From positions 1-36,727 of IMG/VR virus record IMGVR_UViG_3300020172_002273: a stretch of 36,727 nucleotides of DNA; one strand, written 5' to 3'. This stretch comes from a virus. Shown here one piece after another: positions 8,593-36,314 of the stretch. Under the pieces are notes generated by a model. The model was not told where the DNA came from and did not search any database. It was given only the letters and a program-made list of their open reading frames with translations. The stretch's first letter is position 1. The number at the start of each line of letters is the position of its first letter. The translations under genes were made by a program, and so were the position numbers.

Positions 8593-11022
8593 TTACGAAC
8601 CACAACCTTCACATTCAAAAGGTGAATCTGTTGGTCTTGATGGGTTAACCATCTCTACCACTTCCTCCTCTTGATTATTTTGGTTGTATGAAGCACTTTG
8701 TACCTCTTTGGTTTCAACTGTGGGTTTCGCTGTTGAGGTATCAATACCTAAACCTTTTAATGGGTCAACAGCCGCTCTGGTTCTAAGATAATACATACCA
8801 GTTTTCAAACCAAGTTTCCACCCATACAAATGGGCCGCCAAAACTTTGGTTTTGTTTGCATTATCAATAAATAAATTTAATGATTGCGATTGGTCAATAT
8901 ATATTGACCTGTTTGCCGCCATGGTTAATATTCGTTTTTGTGACATTTCCCAAACTGTTTTGTAAACTTCTTTTACATCAACAGGTATTTCAGGGATGTT
9001 TTGTACCGAACCATTTTCCATGATTAATTTTTTCTTTAATTCATCTGACCACAAACCTCTTTCAAGTAATTCATTAACTAAGTGTTTGTTGATTACGATA
9101 AACTCACCACCCAAAGTTCTTCTTGAGTATAGGTTTGATGTAAATGGTTCAAACGCTTCGTTATTACCGAGGATTTGCGCGGTTGACGCGGTTGGCATCG
9201 GAGCAACCAATAAAGAATTTCTAACACCGAATTTTACGATTTCTTTTCTTAATGATTTCCAATCCCATCTACCACTTGTGTCTTTGTCCGTTTTACCCCA
9301 TAATTCGTATTGGAAAATTCCTTTTTCTATTGGAGACCCAACAATAGTTTCGTATGGACCGTGAACTTTTGCTAAATCTTTTGATGATGTTAAAGCGGCA
9401 AAGTAAACGGTTTCAAATATTTCCACTTGTAATTGGTCCGCTTTTTCACTTTCAAATGGTAAATCCAACATACAAAAAACATCGGCTAAACCTTGAACAC
9501 CTAAACCAACTGGCCTATGTCTCATGTTTGAATTTTTTGTTTCCTCTGTGGGGTAAAAATTCAAATCGATAACGTTGTTTAGGTTTTTTACTACTTGATA
9601 AACATACTCATAAAGAAGTTCGTGACTAAACTCTTTGTCGATAATGTATTTTGGTAATGCAATCGATGCGAGGTTACAAACTGCTTGTTCGGTTGGACTT
9701 GAATACTCAATAATTTCAGTACACAAGTTTGAAGATTTAATTGTACCTAAGTTTTTTTGATTTGATTTGTAATTGGCCGCATCTTTATATAACATATAAG
9801 GGGTGCCAGTTTCAATTTGTGCGGTCAAAATCGCGTCCATTAGCTTTCTCGCTTTCACCACTTTTCTTGCCCTACCTTCTTTTTCATATCTCTCATAGAG
9901 TTCAGTAAACTCTTGAGTGAAAGAAAATGGGTCGTCATAAACGTCTGATAATCCTGGCGCTTCGTCAGGTGAAAACAAAGACCAATCCCCATCTTCCTCA
10001 ACCCTTTTCATAAACAAGTTTGGTGTCCACATTGCCAAGAACAAATCTCTCGCTCTCATTTCTTCTTTACCGTGGTTTTTTCTCAAATCAATAAATTCAA
10101 ACACGTCTGAATGCCATGGTTCAAGATAAATTGCAAAAGAACCTTTTCTTTTTCCTCCTTGGTTAATCCACCTTGCAACTTCATTGTAAGTTTTCATCAT
10201 CGGAAGTAAACCATCGGATTCACCTCCTGTTCCCTTAATATAAGAACCTTTAGCCCTAACATCATGAACGTGAAGACCAATCCCCCCTGCCCATTTAGAA
10301 ATCTTAGCAACGTCTTTAATTGTATCAAACAAACCATCAATGTCATCGCCTTTATTTCCAATTAGGAAACAAGATGACATTTGTGGTCTACGGGTACCAG
10401 CGTTGAATAAAGTGGGTGTTGCATGTGTATAAAAATGTTGAGACAAATCATCGTAAATTCTCAATGCCATTTCTAAATCGCCATTACAAATACCCACAGC
10501 AACTCTCATATACATGTATTGTGGTCTTTCAACAATTCTTTGACCAATCTTCAAAAGGTAAGAACGTTCAAGAGTTTTGAATCCAAAATAATCAAAATCA
10601 AAATCTCTTTCTTGCACAACGGCACCATCTAAGGACTCTCTATTTTGAATTACAAATTGATAAACTTCATCTGAAATTAATGATGATTCTTTACCTGTTT
10701 TTGGTTCATTAAAAGAATAAAGTTCTTTGATACATTGGGAGAACTTTTTTGGTGTGGTTTTATGTAGGTTTGATACCGCTAATCTACCCGCTAATTTTGC
10801 GTAATCGGAATGGGTGGTAACCATAGACGCAGCCGTTTCTGCCGCTAAAGTATCTAATTCAGTAGTTGAAATACCGTCATAGATTCCTTGAGTCACCTTA
10901 AGTGTTACCAGTGTCGGGTCAATGTACTCTAAATTTAAATCATCACAGAAATATTGAATTCTTCTGGTGATTTTGTCATATCTCATTTCTTCCAATGAGC
11001 CGTCTCTCTTTTTTACTTTCAT
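8593..11022 (-). CDS. nrdA: Ribonucleoside-diphosphate reductase large subunit, class Ia, eukaryote-like
   Basis: Catalytic subunit that reduces ribonucleoside diphosphates to deoxyribonucleotides, supplying dNTPs for phage replication; 809 aa. An N-terminal ATP-cone (VKKRDGSLEEMRYDKITRRI, residues 3-22) is present, so ATP/dATP activity control is likely. Active-site residues are visible: Cys218 in SSCF, Asn432, Cys434 and Glu436 in NLCTE, Cys449 in AVCN, and the paired tyrosines 744-745 in GMYYLRTR. The C-terminal CEGC (804-807) is the redox-active cysteine pair. From memory, the sequence is much closer to the human RRM1 type than to E. coli NrdA, including the shared ending CGS; this NrdA subclass is also found in Bacteroidetes. 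The gene begins 7 bp after nrdB. A start at MKVKKRDG is well supported. Confidence 0.97.
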   Translation of the reverse strand: MKVKKRDGSLEEMRYDKITRRIQYFCDDLNLEYIDPTLVTLKVTQGIYDGISTTELDTLAAETAASMVTTHSDYAKLAGRLAVSNLHKTTPKKFSQCIKELYSFNEPKTGKESSLISDEVYQFVIQNRESLDGAVVQERDFDFDYFGFKTLERSYLLKIGQRIVERPQYMYMRVAVGICNGDLEMALRIYDDLSQHFYTHATPTLFNAGTRRPQMSSCFLIGNKGDDIDGLFDTIKDVAKISKWAGGIGLHVHDVRAKGSYIKGTGGESDGLLPMMKTYNEVARWINQGGKRKGSFAIYLEPWHSDVFEFIDLRKNHGKEEMRARDLFLAMWTPNLFMKRVEEDGDWSLFSPDEAPGLSDVYDDPFSFTQEFTELYERYEKEGRARKVVKARKLMDAILTAQIETGTPYMLYKDAANYKSNQKNLGTIKSSNLCTEIIEYSSPTEQAVCNLASIALPKYIIDKEFSHELLYEYVYQVVKNLNNVIDLNFYPTEETKNSNMRHRPVGLGVQGLADVFCMLDLPFESEKADQLQVEIFETVYFAALTSSKDLAKVHGPYETIVGSPIEKGIFQYELWGKTDKDTSGRWDWKSLRKEIVKFGVRNSLLVAPMPTASTAQILGNNEAFEPFTSNLYSRRTLGGEFIVINKHLVNELLERGLWSDELKKKLIMENGSVQNIPEIPVDVKEVYKTVWEMSQKRILTMAANRSIYIDQSQSLNLFIDNANKTKVLAAHLYGWKLGLKTGMYYLRTRAAVDPLKGLGIDTSTAKPTVETKEVQSASYNQNNQEEEVVEMVNPSRPTDSPFECEGCGS

Positions 11023-11029
11023 ACTCTAA

Positions 11030-12007
11030 TTAAAAATCTATGTCGTCAAATGATGTATCCATATCTTCAATAGATACGTTATTGTTTACTCCCGCTTTTT
11101 GATATTCCGCAACCCTTTTTTCGAAGAAGTTTGTTTTTCCTTGAAGTGCAATGTTTTGCATAAAATCAAATGGATTCTCAACGTTATAAACTTTAGAACA
11201 ATTTAAAGACATTAACAATCTGTCCGTTACAAATTCTAAATATTGAGACATTAAATCCGAGTTCATACCTATCAATTTTACAGGTAGTGCCTCTAAAATA
11301 AATTCTTTTTCAATTTCTAAAGCCCCACAGATAATGTCTTTAATTCTTTTTTCACTGAGTTTATTCTCGATGTGATTATTAAATAAATGACACGCAAAAT
11401 CACAGTGCATTCCTTCATCTCTTGAAATAAGCTCATTTGAAAAGGTTAAACCAGGCATTAAACCACGTTTTTTGAGCCAGAAAATAGAACAGAATGAGCC
11501 AGAAAAGAAAATACCTTCCACCGCGGCAAACGCTATGAGTCTTTCGGCGAATGTTCCTTTCTCAATATATTTTAGTGCCCACTCAGCCTTTTTCTTTACC
11601 GCCGGTATAGTGTCAATTGCGTTGAATAATTTACTTTGTTCTTGTTTGTCTTTGATATATGTGTCAATAAGTAATGAATATGTTTCACTGTGAATGTTTT
11701 CCATCATGATTTGAAATCCATAAAACATTTTCGCTTCGGTATACTGAACCGCGTTAACAAAATTCATTGCAATATTCTCATTCACAATACCGTCAGATGC
11801 TGCAAAAAAAGCCAACACATTTTTTATAAAATGTTGTTCATCTCCGTTTAGTTTATTTTCCCAGTCATAAATGTCTTGCGCTAAATCAATTTCTTCCGCA
11901 GTCCAAAAACACGCTTCTTGTTGTTTGTAGTACTTCCAAATGTCGTGGTGTTCGATTGGAAAAAGGACAAAACGTCCTGGATTTTCTTTTAAAATCTTCT
12001 CTATCAT
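11030..12007 (-). CDS. nrdB: Ribonucleoside-diphosphate reductase small subunit, class Ia, eukaryote-like
   Basis: Radical-generating beta subunit, 325 aa, partner of the NrdA encoded just downstream. The di-iron ligands and radical tyrosine can be placed: Asp72 (ASDG), Glu103 and His106 (ENIH), Tyr110, Glu164 (VEGIFF), Glu198 and His201 (RDEGMH). Long stretches such as [19 protein letters not shown] and [10 protein letters not shown] resemble the eukaryotic R2 protein very closely. The C-terminus ends in an acidic, aromatic tail (DTSFDDIDF), the type of tail by which R2 docks onto R1. There is a 14-bp gap after the helicase gene and a 7-bp gap before nrdA, so all three are in one operon. No Shine-Dalgarno is seen. 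Nothing is truncated. Confidence 0.97.
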
Positions 12008-32241: not shown

Positions 32242-32281
32242 ATTTTTTTATTTTATAACTAGTATAATTTACAAAAAGTTA

Positions 32282-32340: not shown

Positions 32341-32829
32341 TTAGTATACTAATATACATCTATCCATTCTTAACGAACAAGTGATAGATGCAATATCATC
32401 TCTTGAATAATCAAGTTCGTTAAAGTTTAAGTCGGTAATGAAAGTTCCTTGAAGAATCCATTTTTCAACCACAACCCCCGTTGGGTCTAACATTTCTAAT
32501 TCAATATCTTTCTTATATCCAGCCGCGTAACCCATACGACCTGTAACTGATTCAGCGTGTAGACGGAACCACTCCATCAATGCTTGAGCCGCTGAAGGTC
32601 CGATAGGGTCTTTGAAGGTTACTCTTATCTCATTCCATTCAAATCTACCAGCAACGTATGTTGATGTGTTGATAAAAGGAATTGCAACTGAATTAATTTT
32701 TGCACTTGGTCTAGCACTTGATGTTACATACCATTCATTTATTCCCAATGAAGAGGGAAATCTTAATATGAATCGGTTAACTCTTTTCGGTTCGTAAGGA
32801 ACCGGCATTTTCATTAATAAATCTGCCAT
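32341..32829 (-). CDS. 19: Tail tube protein, T4 gp19-like
   Basis: A 162-aa tail tube subunit (T4 gp19 is 163 aa) that stacks in hexameric rings inside the sheath and forms the DNA channel. Family features include the N-terminal KMPVPYEPKRVNRFILRFPS (7-26), the central WNEIRVTFKDPIGPSAAQAL with MEWFRLHAESVTGRMGYAAG (72-111), and the end LDPTGVVVEKWILQGTFITD followed by LNFNELDYSRDDIASITCSLR. These are characteristic of T4-type tubes. It lies just after the sheath gene, separated by a 318-bp non-coding island, and is followed by its own terminator. A GATATTTATA motif is located 41 nt before the ATG; there is no Shine-Dalgarno. Confidence 0.95.
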   Translation of the reverse strand: MADLLMKMPVPYEPKRVNRFILRFPSSLGINEWYVTSSARPSAKINSVAIPFINTSTYVAGRFEWNEIRVTFKDPIGPSAAQALMEWFRLHAESVTGRMGYAAGYKKDIELEMLDPTGVVVEKWILQGTFITDLNFNELDYSRDDIASITCSLRMDRCILVY

Positions 32830-32870: not shown

Positions 32871-32878
32871 TATAAATA
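32871..32878 (-). promoter_or_regulatory. GATATTTATA motif before the tail tube gene
   Basis: On the minus strand AGGATATTTATAAGAAAG lies 41 nt before the tube ATG. It follows a terminator and a long gap, so a promoter is required near here, and the distance suits a normal leader. This is one of the best candidates for a late promoter of the phage. Confidence 0.5.
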
Positions 32879-32952
32879 TCCTGTATATGAAAAAGAAAAA
32901 AAATCTTATTCATTACTTGATAATGTCAAATTTTTTTCGTATTTTTTCCATA

Positions 32953-33019
32953 CTAGTACTAGATGCTAGTAAATATAGAACTAGACTAGATAAACTAGAA
33001 TTAAAATAACTAGAACTAG
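32953..33019. repeat. Cluster of eight CTAG words (ACTAGA/ACTAGT units)
   Basis: CTAG occurs at 32953, 32959, 32966, 32981, 32986, 32995, 33010 and 33016, mostly as ACTAGA or ACTAGT, in 67 bp. Spacings are irregular (5, 6, 7, 9 and 15 bp). CTAG is palindromic and is generally under-represented in bacterial and phage DNA, so the cluster stands out. A ninth copy lies at 32259-32262 ahead of the gp26-like gene. It could be an iteron-like binding array; the protein is unknown. Confidence 0.6.
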
Positions 33020-33097
33020 AATACTGGAACATATACTGGGTAATTTATAATTTTATTTGTTTTATATTTAGTGTTTCCCTGTTTCACACTACAATTG

Positions 33098-33113
33098 TGT
33101 TCCACGTGAAACA
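33098..33113. promoter_or_regulatory. parS: parS-like centromere site, exact 16-bp match
   Basis: TGTTCCACGTGAAACA is identical to the 16-bp parS site first described for Bacillus subtilis ParB (Spo0J), a sequence conserved across most bacterial phyla. An additional half-site TGTTTCAC lies at 33080-33087 in the same orientation as the left arm, 18 nt from the right arm GTGAAACA. No parA or parB gene lies in the window, so any binding would come from the host ParB or from a phage protein encoded elsewhere. The match is seen directly; its function is inferred. Confidence 0.7.
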
Positions 33114-33119
33114 TAAAAT

Positions 33120-33147
33120 AGGGAGGGTTTCCCCTCCCCTTTTTTTA
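33120..33147. terminator. GC-rich hairpin after the sheath gene
   Basis: Stem GGGAGGG (33121-33127) and CCCTCCC (33132-33138) with a 4-nt loop, GAAA on the minus strand. After the stem the minus strand reads TATTTTAT, a modest T tract. The plus strand reads CTTTTTTTATT, a better one. It begins right at the sheath stop, so it probably ends sheath mRNA, but it would also stop plus-strand transcripts coming from the island. Confidence 0.8.
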
Positions 33148-36000
33148 TTAGATATTATCGAATGACGCCCCTGTTGGTGTGATTATGAATTCAACATCGA
33201 TGAATTCAAGAGCCCTTGTAGGTTTGATATAAATTTTACCTCTTAGTGTATTTGCATCAATGTCTTCTGGGTCATTGGATACCGTTACACGGAATTCATA
33301 CAAACCTCTTTCTCTCTTAATTGCGTCCAATATTGGATTTACCAATCTTAAGAACTCGTTACGAACTTGGTCATCGTTTTGTTCAAACAACAACCTTATT
33401 GCTACCGCTGAAATTAATTTTCTCGCTCTTAACAATAATCTTCTTACGTTAATTCTATCCAAAGCTGATTCACGAACTTGAAGTGTTTTGTTACCCCAAA
33501 TTATGGTACCAGTATCTGCAAATGTTGCAATAGGATTAATTCTAGCCTTATAAAGGTCATCTCTCTCATCCAATGTTAATTTCTTGTACGCTTTGATTGA
33601 ATTAACCAAACCTCTTGAATAACCCGCCACCGCGAACCAAGGGAAAGATACATTATCGGTTAGTGCAATGTTTCTCAAAACCTCACCTGTTGGTGGTAAA
33701 TAAAGTTGGGTCGCGTTATCGGCATCTCTCACTTGAATCCAAGGCCAGTAAACCGCTGAATAGTTACTATCAATCGCAACACCATCCAAAGCGTCTATCA
33801 CCTCGTCTGCTGTACCATAATTTGGCGATGATATAACATACAGTGAATCCGCTCTGTCTTCCTCAATCATATCGATTGCATAAGATGTTAATGAACTGTG
33901 GTCGTAAAAGTTAATACCTGGTGTTGCAAAAATGTTTACATCCACCGCTTCAGGGTTTGAGAAAGTGTCGATACCTTGAGTGTAGGCGTAGTAGTCAGAG
34001 TTTCCTGACACCGTACTAAATACACCACCATTATTAGTATTACCACTTGTGTAAGTATTTTTACCAAAGATGAATCCGTCACCATATGTTCTTACGTTTC
34101 TATAGATATCCCAACCATCAAATCCACCATTTGCCGCAAATGTAAATTTACGATAGTTAATGTTTTCTAGTAAATTATTTAAACCTGTTTGACCTTCTAA
34201 ATCATACGATGTAGTTAAGAAGGTTGTTCCTGTAAGGGTAGACGCGTTTGTCGACAAGTGAAAACCTTTTGTTGTTCCGGCCGCCGAAGTTCCTTTGAAT
34301 TTGAATAAGTCTCTGTCGTATGTTACCATACCAACAGGAGTTGCTAAACCGAAATATGTTCTTCTTACTTTATCACCTGAAGATAATATTGGTGTTCCGT
34401 TTGCCTCATATCCTGTAGTTTGACCCGCGGTATAGAAATCTGTTTTATACATTACAGAACCTAAAGTTGATGAACCGAAAGATGTGTTATTTGTGAATCC
34501 TTTGAATCCAGCGGGATATGCGTCTGTTGGGTGATTGTCAGACATCACTAACATTATATAACGTGAACGTAATTCATATTCACCGTCAGAAGTACCCACT
34601 TTTTTAGCTACATAACCTGGTAAATCAGGATTCATTGAACATCTTGAATATTTTTCAAGTACAACTAAGTTTTCATCGGTATCATTGAAGTCACGAACAA
34701 TTAAATCAAATTCACCCGTGTTTACATCAATGTTGATAATTGATATTTTCACTTCATAGTTTGCAGAATCACCATCAGAAACAGTAACAACTTCAAACAA
34801 ATCGGCCACTTCACCACCTCTCACCTCAGAAACAACTGTTGGTGTCATTGGGGTGTCCCAAGAATATTTAAAGTTATTATTTTCAGTTTCATAAACTTCA
34901 GTCAAACTAAGACCTCTAATTAAACCTAATTCATATGCTCTTGCTAAATAATTTGGATATGCTTCATAAACATAAATAGGAATTTCACTTCTTAATCTGT
35001 CGTAGACATCAGAACCAAATACTTTTGTTACGTATTTTGAAGAAGAGGAGTCCATACTACAAGTATATGTTTTAGCTCCACTTGTTGAACCTGTAACATT
35101 AACTGTAAATTCCGCTAACGGGTTTGTTGTAATCCCTGTTCCTGATATTTGGAAATTAACGTTTGATGTGGTTTCTAAAGTCAGAGTCTGACCAACATAT
35201 GAACCTCTTGGTCTAAACGCTAAAACAACCTGACCATCGTATTCTGTATTTAGTGTACTATTGTAAGTGTATTTTGTTACATCAAATTTTGTGGTACCAC
35301 TGTTGTATACAAATAGATAAGAGTATACTTGAGTACCGGCAGTGTTTACTAAAACATTATACCATTCTTTGTTGTTGAAGTTTGACGCATTGTCTAATCC
35401 AGTCAATGGTGAAACTTCTTCCAATGTTGATGTTAGTGATGTTGTACCCGAAGTAGGAACATTACCCATGACAAACCATTGTCCGTGATTTGAGGATGTA
35501 TTACCACTAAAGTTAGATACAATATAATTAGTGATGTAATTACCGTCTACAGATATTTTATCTGATAATTCACTGTAAATTGTACTTGCTGTAATGGTAG
35601 CCGTGGTTGCGGACATAGATAATCCCGTGGTCGTACCACTTAAAGAACCCAAAGTCACCCCACCAATTGTTTGCACACCATAAGTTTTTTGTGGTAAGTA
35701 ACCTGTTAACCCTAATATTCTTGTTACAAATAACTGATTTGATTCCTCTAAATACGCTTTAGCGAAATAAGGTAATTCAAATTTTGGATTGTTGTTACCA
35801 TCTTTCAGTGGAGTTGTTCCCCCAAAATATGACCTAAACTCGTCAAAATTTGTTATTAATACAGGTTCGAAGGCGGGACCTTTTAAGGTTTCACCCACCA
35901 AACCTAATGTGCTCACTCCAACACTTTGTGCTACGAATGTTAAGTCTTTTTCAGATGTGTATACACCTGGAGATACAAAAACTCTATTTGATGTTGCCAT
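33148..36000 (-). CDS. 18: Contractile tail sheath protein, T4 gp18-like
   Basis: A 950-aa sheath subunit, far longer than T4 gp18 (659 aa). The N-terminus FVSPGVYTSEKDLTFVAQSV (8-27) and GLVGETLKGPAFEP (33-46) is the classic sheath start. The C-terminal core is clear: PWFAVAGYSRGLV, KLTLDERDDLYKARINPIAT, IIWGNKTLQ, INVRRLLLRARKLI and LRGKIYIKPTRALEFIDVEF. Residues of about 100-330 are Ser/Thr/Gly-rich beta sequence (SGTTTGLSMSATTATITAS), as are parts near 540-660, and are probably surface domains inserted in the conserved core. It opens the shaft operon. Upstream is a 137-bp divergent region with a GATATTTAT motif about 40 nt before the ATG; there is no Shine-Dalgarno. A hairpin terminator follows directly. 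Confidence 0.95.
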   Translation of the reverse strand: MATSNRVFVSPGVYTSEKDLTFVAQSVGVSTLGLVGETLKGPAFEPVLITNFDEFRSYFGGTTPLKDGNNNPKFELPYFAKAYLEESNQLFVTRILGLTGYLPQKTYGVQTIGGVTLGSLSGTTTGLSMSATTATITASTIYSELSDKISVDGNYITNYIVSNFSGNTSSNHGQWFVMGNVPTSGTTSLTSTLEEVSPLTGLDNASNFNNKEWYNVLVNTAGTQVYSYLFVYNSGTTKFDVTKYTYNSTLNTEYDGQVVLAFRPRGSYVGQTLTLETTSNVNFQISGTGITTNPLAEFTVNVTGSTSGAKTYTCSMDSSSSKYVTKVFGSDVYDRLRSEIPIYVYEAYPNYLARAYELGLIRGLSLTEVYETENNNFKYSWDTPMTPTVVSEVRGGEVADLFEVVTVSDGDSANYEVKISIINIDVNTGEFDLIVRDFNDTDENLVVLEKYSRCSMNPDLPGYVAKKVGTSDGEYELRSRYIMLVMSDNHPTDAYPAGFKGFTNNTSFGSSTLGSVMYKTDFYTAGQTTGYEANGTPILSSGDKVRRTYFGLATPVGMVTYDRDLFKFKGTSAAGTTKGFHLSTNASTLTGTTFLTTSYDLEGQTGLNNLLENINYRKFTFAANGGFDGWDIYRNVRTYGDGFIFGKNTYTSGNTNNGGVFSTVSGNSDYYAYTQGIDTFSNPEAVDVNIFATPGINFYDHSSLTSYAIDMIEEDRADSLYVISSPNYGTADEVIDALDGVAIDSNYSAVYWPWIQVRDADNATQLYLPPTGEVLRNIALTDNVSFPWFAVAGYSRGLVNSIKAYKKLTLDERDDLYKARINPIATFADTGTIIWGNKTLQVRESALDRINVRRLLLRARKLISAVAIRLLFEQNDDQVRNEFLRLVNPILDAIKRERGLYEFRVTVSNDPEDIDANTLRGKIYIKPTRALEFIDVEFIITPTGASFDNI

Positions 36001-36137: not shown

Positions 36138-36314
36138 ATGAAAAACCCCTCAAAAAATATAAAGGTGAGTGAAAATCATCACCAAATGTTAAAAGAATAT
36201 TGCGACAAAAATGGATTAAAAATTTACAAGGTTGTTCAGAAATGGATTGATGAACTTTGTAAAACAGGAAAGGTGAATGATTCACCTAAGAAAAAAGATA
36301 TCTACGGGGATTAA
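36138..36314 (+). CDS. Small protein with ribbon-helix-helix-like pattern (58 aa), the only plus-strand gene
   Basis: A 58-aa frame from ATG 36138 to TAA 36314. The product has a short basic N-terminus, a probable strand NIKVSENHH (7-15), then two helices, QMLKEYCDKNG (16-26) and IYKVVQKWIDELC (29-41), and a basic tail KKKDIYGD. Strand, helix, turn with Gly, helix is the ribbon-helix-helix (Arc/MetJ/CopG) layout, and small proteins of this look occur in T4-like phages; I know this type only as hypothetical. The strand direction is opposite to all other genes. It is divergent from the sheath and converges on the LamG protein with only 7 bp between stops. A DNA-binding regulator of the neighbouring structural genes is plausible but unproven. 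It has no Shine-Dalgarno. Confidence 0.7.
   Translation: MKNPSKNIKVSENHHQMLKEYCDKNGLKIYKVVQKWIDELCKTGKVNDSPKKKDIYGD

Follow-up and report, generated by a model that had tools for sequence, protein, structure and literature searches.

A CTAG word array beside a parS-type site, a possible centromere-like locus in a clade of large Bacteroidota phages

Introduction

The parH locus of TP228 consists of degenerate tetramer boxes with AT-rich DNA between them, and it is coated by the ribbon-helix-helix protein ParG (PMC7308502, PMC5016525). The parS of pSM19035 is made up of contiguous 7-bp heptads, in both orientations, that lie at promoters and are bound by the ribbon-helix-helix protein Omega/ParB (PMC9499535). 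The oriE of phage T4 contains evenly spaced 12-nt iterons that are syntenic in related phages, for which an initiator role has been suspected and never proven (PMC3016281). Large Bacteroidetes phages have also been described (PMC9723584), which resemble the clade studied here in general type.

The locus analyzed here lies in the IMG/VR virus record IMGVR_UViG_3300020172_002273, positions 1 to 36,727 (the window, i.e., the whole stretch of DNA that was analyzed, 36,727 nucleotides). Like parH/ParG, it has short words spaced by AT-rich DNA in a single place and a small ribbon-helix-helix-type candidate protein with weak similarity to ParG; unlike parH/ParG, its words are CYRG (CTAG, CTGG, CCAG, CCGG) with a period of ~15 bp, a chromosomal-type parS adjoins the array, and there is no adjacent ParA-type gene. 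It shares with pSM19035 the short repeats in both orientations, the promoter setting, and a ribbon-helix-helix protein, which in the phage is a candidate binder, but the words are spaced instead of being contiguous 7-bp repeats and no ParA was found in the relatives searched. The 16-bp site pattern is identical to that of the Flavobacteriaceae ParABS system, and a phage ParB-fold protein exists, whereas the phage has one site, degenerate in many relatives, with no ParA detected and with the word array alongside. Finally, short repeats that are regularly spaced and syntenic among related phages recall T4 oriE, but the T4 repeats are 12 nt long, no parS is present there, and origin activity of the phage array is a candidate function. 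In the literature searched, we found no report on a phage parS without its partner, nor on CTAG iterons.

Results

The CTAG cluster of the sheath-tube gap

The features of the region are the following:

32341..32829, minus strand: tail tube gene, 162 aa (PHROG 4542, tail tube; Pfam gp19 sub-threshold)
32871..32879, minus strand: late-promoter motif ATATTTATA of the tube gene (motif concentrated just upstream of gene starts in two relatives)
32916..32941, minus strand: 26-bp block TACGAAAAAAATTTGACATTATCAAG, single copy, always adjoining the array on its tube side
32953..33019, no strand: CTAG core, eight words with AT-rich spacers (counted; kept in relatives)
32953..33040, no strand: full CYRG word array including two ATACTGG words (word positions, relatives)
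33098..33113, no strand: parS-type site TGTTCCACGTGAAACA (sequence match; kept in 33/40 loci)
33120..33139, minus strand: terminator-like hairpin after the sheath gene
33148..36000, minus strand: tail sheath gene, 950 aa (PHROG 23; Pfam Phage_sheath_1)

An earlier note on this DNA had reported eight CTAG words in 67 bp at 32953-33019, and their positions were confirmed (starts at 32953, 32959, 32966, 32981, 32986, 32995, 33010, and 33016). It had also held that CTAG, a rare word, is packed here, and both the window-wide count and the local enrichment agree with this. CTAG is not common throughout the window, which contains 29 copies vs 55 ± 6 in dinucleotide shuffles (~twofold under-representation), and thus it is a rare word except at the cluster. 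The 321-bp gap between the sheath and tube genes, which is 75% AT, contains 8 copies vs a shuffled mean of 0.7 and maximum of 4 (5000 dinucleotide shuffles). Any other 67-bp stretch of the window contains at most 2, and the Poisson probability of the cluster, using the CTAG rate outside it, is ~8e-17. The ninth CTAG that the note had placed at 32259 is indeed there, solitary and outside the cluster. The two ATACTGG words following the CTAG words were located at 33021-33027 and 33033-33039 and are members of the same array. The word class is the broader CYRG, which the note had missed, as it had the ~15-bp period.

The array is kept in related phages

Using the tube protein as query, 80 IMG/VR loci were found, and comparison of the sheath-tube gap revealed the same anatomy and array, rather than unrelated sequence, in nearly all loci with sufficient upstream sequence. 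The order on the coding strand is fixed: sheath stop, terminator hairpin, parS-like palindrome, CCCAGTATA, word array, TACGAAAAA..TTGACA..TCAAG block, ATATTTATA late promoter, and tube ATG. Among 40 non-redundant loci, over which the array counts were taken, the gap contains at least three CTAG in 30 and at least four CYRG words in 36. The distances between CTAG pairs peak near 15, 30, 45, and 60 bp, giving a ~15-bp period with a 6+9 split within the unit; locus L059 has eleven copies with spacing mostly of 14-16 bp. Whole ~15-bp units have been gained or lost between close relatives, in which conservation is 81-86% at word bases vs 33% at spacer G/C and 68% at spacer A/T. Such a pattern, in which words are kept while spacers drift, lends comparative support to the earlier proposal of an array for a putative DNA-binding protein.

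The locus contains the densest 120 bp for CYRG in three relatives of 176-310 kb, one of them complete (G003, G004, and G008). G004 (310 kb) carries a 99-bp terminal repeat and is therefore taken as complete; it has 6 CTAG per 100 bp at the locus, and the next best value elsewhere is 2. The corresponding values in G003 (288 kb) are 9 and 2. Genome-wide, CTAG occurs 146 times in G003 vs 450 expected, and 176 times in G004 vs 305 expected. G008 has just two CTAG at the locus, yet this is the densest CYRG cluster of its contig. A triple CTAG array at the array spacing occurs at this locus only, in each large contig having one. A scan of viruses for regular CTAG repeats mostly returned tandem repeats of unrelated contigs, many resembling coding repeats, and thus regular CTAG spacing alone is not diagnostic.

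In L034, L044, L045, and L077, opposite-strand genes (553, 227-230, and 118 aa) are inserted in the sheath-tube gap. The 118-aa insert looks HNH-like, and the gap is thus an insertion hot spot, perhaps of homing endonucleases.

The parS-type site and the ParB-fold protein

The parS TGTTCCACGTGAAACA is single in the window, ~80 bp from the last CTAG, and G001-G004 each have one copy of the exact palindrome GTTCCACGTGGAAC. The window site matches the 16-bp chromosomal site pattern of Flavobacteriaceae: of 41 Flavobacteriaceae genomes, 36 contain TGTTYCACGTGRAACA in 1-3 copies, and none contains a control pattern. When up to 4 mismatches are allowed, 33 of the 40 non-redundant loci have a parS-like site, usually at 30-33 bp from the first word and at ~60 bp from it in the window's own group; shuffles yield such a site in ~2%. 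Many relatives have a site with a degenerate center, and 7 of the 40 loci have array words and no such site. Thus, the composite locus with parS suggested by the earlier note is supported by the 33 loci with their near-constant distance, but not by the 7 loci with array words alone. A general association of parS and CTAG was ruled out, since the local CTAG density at 126 parS sites, almost all of which lie in contigs of other viruses, was 2.4/kb vs a background of 1.8/kb.

A whole-genome search with PF02195 had suggested that the phage has no ParB. This was ruled out when a weak match to TIGR00180 pointed to a protein of 251 aa, encoded by both G003 and G004, with matches to PHROG 12305 (ParB-like partition protein) and, by Foldseek, to ParB structures:

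L093:900-1655 (G003:220903-221658) and L600:942-1643 (G004): phage ParB-fold protein, ~250 aa (PHROG 12305, Foldseek)

The presence of parS and of the ParB-fold gene was compared in three contigs, one complete; the protein was not found in G008, an incomplete contig with no parS-like site at the locus. A ParA-type ATPase (PF13614) was not found in four relatives, one complete, and tubulin was looked for in these phages and not found.

A small ribbon-helix-helix-type protein

The protein that the earlier note had proposed as array binder is encoded beyond the sheath gene:

36138..36314, plus strand: 58-aa ribbon-helix-helix-type protein, candidate array binder (synteny, fold, families)

Homologues are present in 92 of 96 loci with sufficient sequence, always divergent from the sheath gene, and the gene is single copy in seven large contigs. 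In L045 and L118 the array is present and no ribbon-helix-helix gene was detected. In Microcystis phage Mel-JY01 and Flavobacterium phage immuto, the sheath-tube gap is short, and both the locus and the 58-aa protein are absent; neither a homologue of this protein nor similar intergenic DNA was found among named phages (50,697 records).

AlphaFold models an extended N-terminus followed by two helices (pLDDT 70), and the Foldseek matches are mostly ribbon-helix-helix proteins, each with E above 0.1. Pfam repeatedly gives sub-threshold matches to RepB-RCR_reg, ParG, and Omega for different family members, many of which PHROGs label Arc-like or transcriptional repressor; the family scores are all below the cut-off and the fold matches individually weak. 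Because of its ribbon-helix-helix-type fold and strict synteny, the 58-aa protein is the best candidate binder of the array. Two results weigh against that part of the earlier proposal: its own promoter contains GATA/TATC words and no CTAG words were found there, and a subclade with changed array words has kept the N-terminal strand unchanged. There was no sign of autoregulation of the gene through CTAG words. The GATA/TATC words recur inverted in this promoter (e.g., GATACTAATTTATCTTTTAGTATT), upstream of window 36138 and of its homologues, and are possibly the operator of the ribbon-helix-helix gene itself.

Promoters, host signals, and the 26-bp block

In G003 and G004, the late-promoter motif TATTTATA clusters at 11-30 bp ahead of gene starts. 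These two genomes are also enriched in Bacteroidetes-type promoters (TTTG-N17-23-TAnnTTTG) and show no excess of Shine-Dalgarno sequences, suggesting a host in the Bacteroidota. When carriage in genome contigs was used to look for the host, no tube relative was found.

The 26-bp block lies directly upstream of the tube gene in 70 of 74 newly fetched viral matches. It also occurs, as TACGAAAAATATTTGACATTGTCAAG, in an unrelated family of 60-70 kb phages (TerL PHROG 6681, portal PHROG 6547), at L255 10492, L276 7377, L332 3890, and L601 4347, and L602 matches a shorter core; there it sits between the leftward structural and rightward replication arms.

Discussion

The CTAG cluster may be the core of a single-copy, centromere-like locus in a clade of large, uncultured Bacteroidota phages, a tentative reading to which we assign a probability of about 0.4. 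In its favor, the dense array is unique within whole contigs and is placed between the terminator and the late promoter. Comparison of the relatives points in the same direction: the order is fixed, the parS-to-array distance is near constant within groups, and the words persist through changes in spacers and unit number. The parS equals the Flavobacteriaceae chromosomal site, and the host signals are Bacteroidota-like. The ribbon-helix-helix gene is present in 92/96 loci, whereas two named phages lack both the gene and the locus, and the recurring weak family matches of its product include ParG and Omega, both centromere binders. The ParB-fold protein, in turn, appears to accompany parS, being present in the parS-bearing G003 and G004 and not found in the parS-less G008. 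Against a centromere stand the lack of a detectable ParA-type ATPase in four relatives, the 7/40 loci without a parS-like site and the many degenerate centers, the weak matches of the small protein with its GATA/TATC promoter, and the L045 and L118 arrays without a ribbon-helix-helix gene. By analogy, the locus would best be likened to a type Ib plasmid centromere with a parS of the chromosomal type beside it. That it is a type Ib centromere is not established, since no ParA-type ATPase was found in the four relatives and the small protein is a putative binder. The locus looks like a docking site for DNA-organizing proteins, not an accident.

A replication origin, which the earlier note had offered as an alternative, is rather unlikely; the words would then be iterons that bind an initiator next to AT-rich DNA, a role suspected and never proven for those of T4 oriE. 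Such an origin agrees with a single-copy iterated array with a ~15-bp period in a gap of 75% AT, and the recurrence of the 26-bp block between two gene arms of an unrelated phage family mildly favors an origin or a host-factor site, although that recurrence may be due to chance (~0.2 matches expected by our own estimate). However, strand skew, which is weak evidence in phages, is unchanged at the locus, and the flanking genes are co-directional.

It is unlikely that the array serves the tail tube late promoter as an operator or enhancer to which the small ribbon-helix-helix protein binds. The position ~75-170 bp upstream of this promoter, the Arc-like or repressor names given by PHROGs, and the 70/74 block matches that precede a tube gene would all suit an operator, but the block and the array are absent from other late genes, and an operator gives parS no place. 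In addition, the L034 array is intact though an inserted gene separates it from the tube gene by ~1.7 kb, which argues mildly against a promoter-proximal operator.

An RNA or cruciform hairpin formed by the self-complementary words in the tube leader is improbable. The fold energies of the array are below those of shuffles on average (mean z -2.0), probably because the words are self-complementary. The folds differ among relatives, and thus a consensus RNA fold was ruled out; there is no Rfam match up to E=1, and long head-to-tail arrays (L059, L023) form no single hairpin. The array is also upstream of the late promoter: since it lies between the terminator-like hairpin and the tube promoter, most late transcripts should not include it. 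In the L041/L043 subclade, the words of the two arms changed in concert, which would suit pairing or paired protein half-sites alike. Finally, the P1 packaging site contains clustered palindromic tetranucleotides, as does this single-copy locus, but a packaging (pac-like) site is very improbable, since the G008 terminase gene (9585-11114) is ~47 kb away and the longer contigs examined end elsewhere.

Returning to the centromere-like reading, a dimer of the ribbon-helix-helix protein would coat the array cooperatively, as ParG does on parH, and ParB, either from the host or the phage's own ParB-fold protein, would load at parS. The proteins on both elements could then form one nucleoprotein complex that would position, segregate, or organize replicating phage genomes, possibly via host ParA. 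This complete scheme of a phage centromere, with a coated tetramer array, a host-type parS served by host or phage ParB, and a borrowed host ParA that positions or segregates the genomes, is doubtful. If it were true, large phages apparently without a ParA motor would keep a conserved centromere-like site that uses the segregation language of the host chromosome, and this site would offer a direct handle on the placement and organization of DNA in 200-300 kb phages that have no known tubulin spindle.

Two minor observations were made along with these results. The exact chromosomal-type parS is present in numerous viral contigs that are unrelated and vary in G+C (L465-L583); these may be prophages, contamination, or true phage parS sites. 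In addition, G003:107948-124367 contains a 5473-aa open frame with Thr/Pro/Asn-rich repeats of the TPTNTPTNTVTPT type and a GC skew of ~-0.67.
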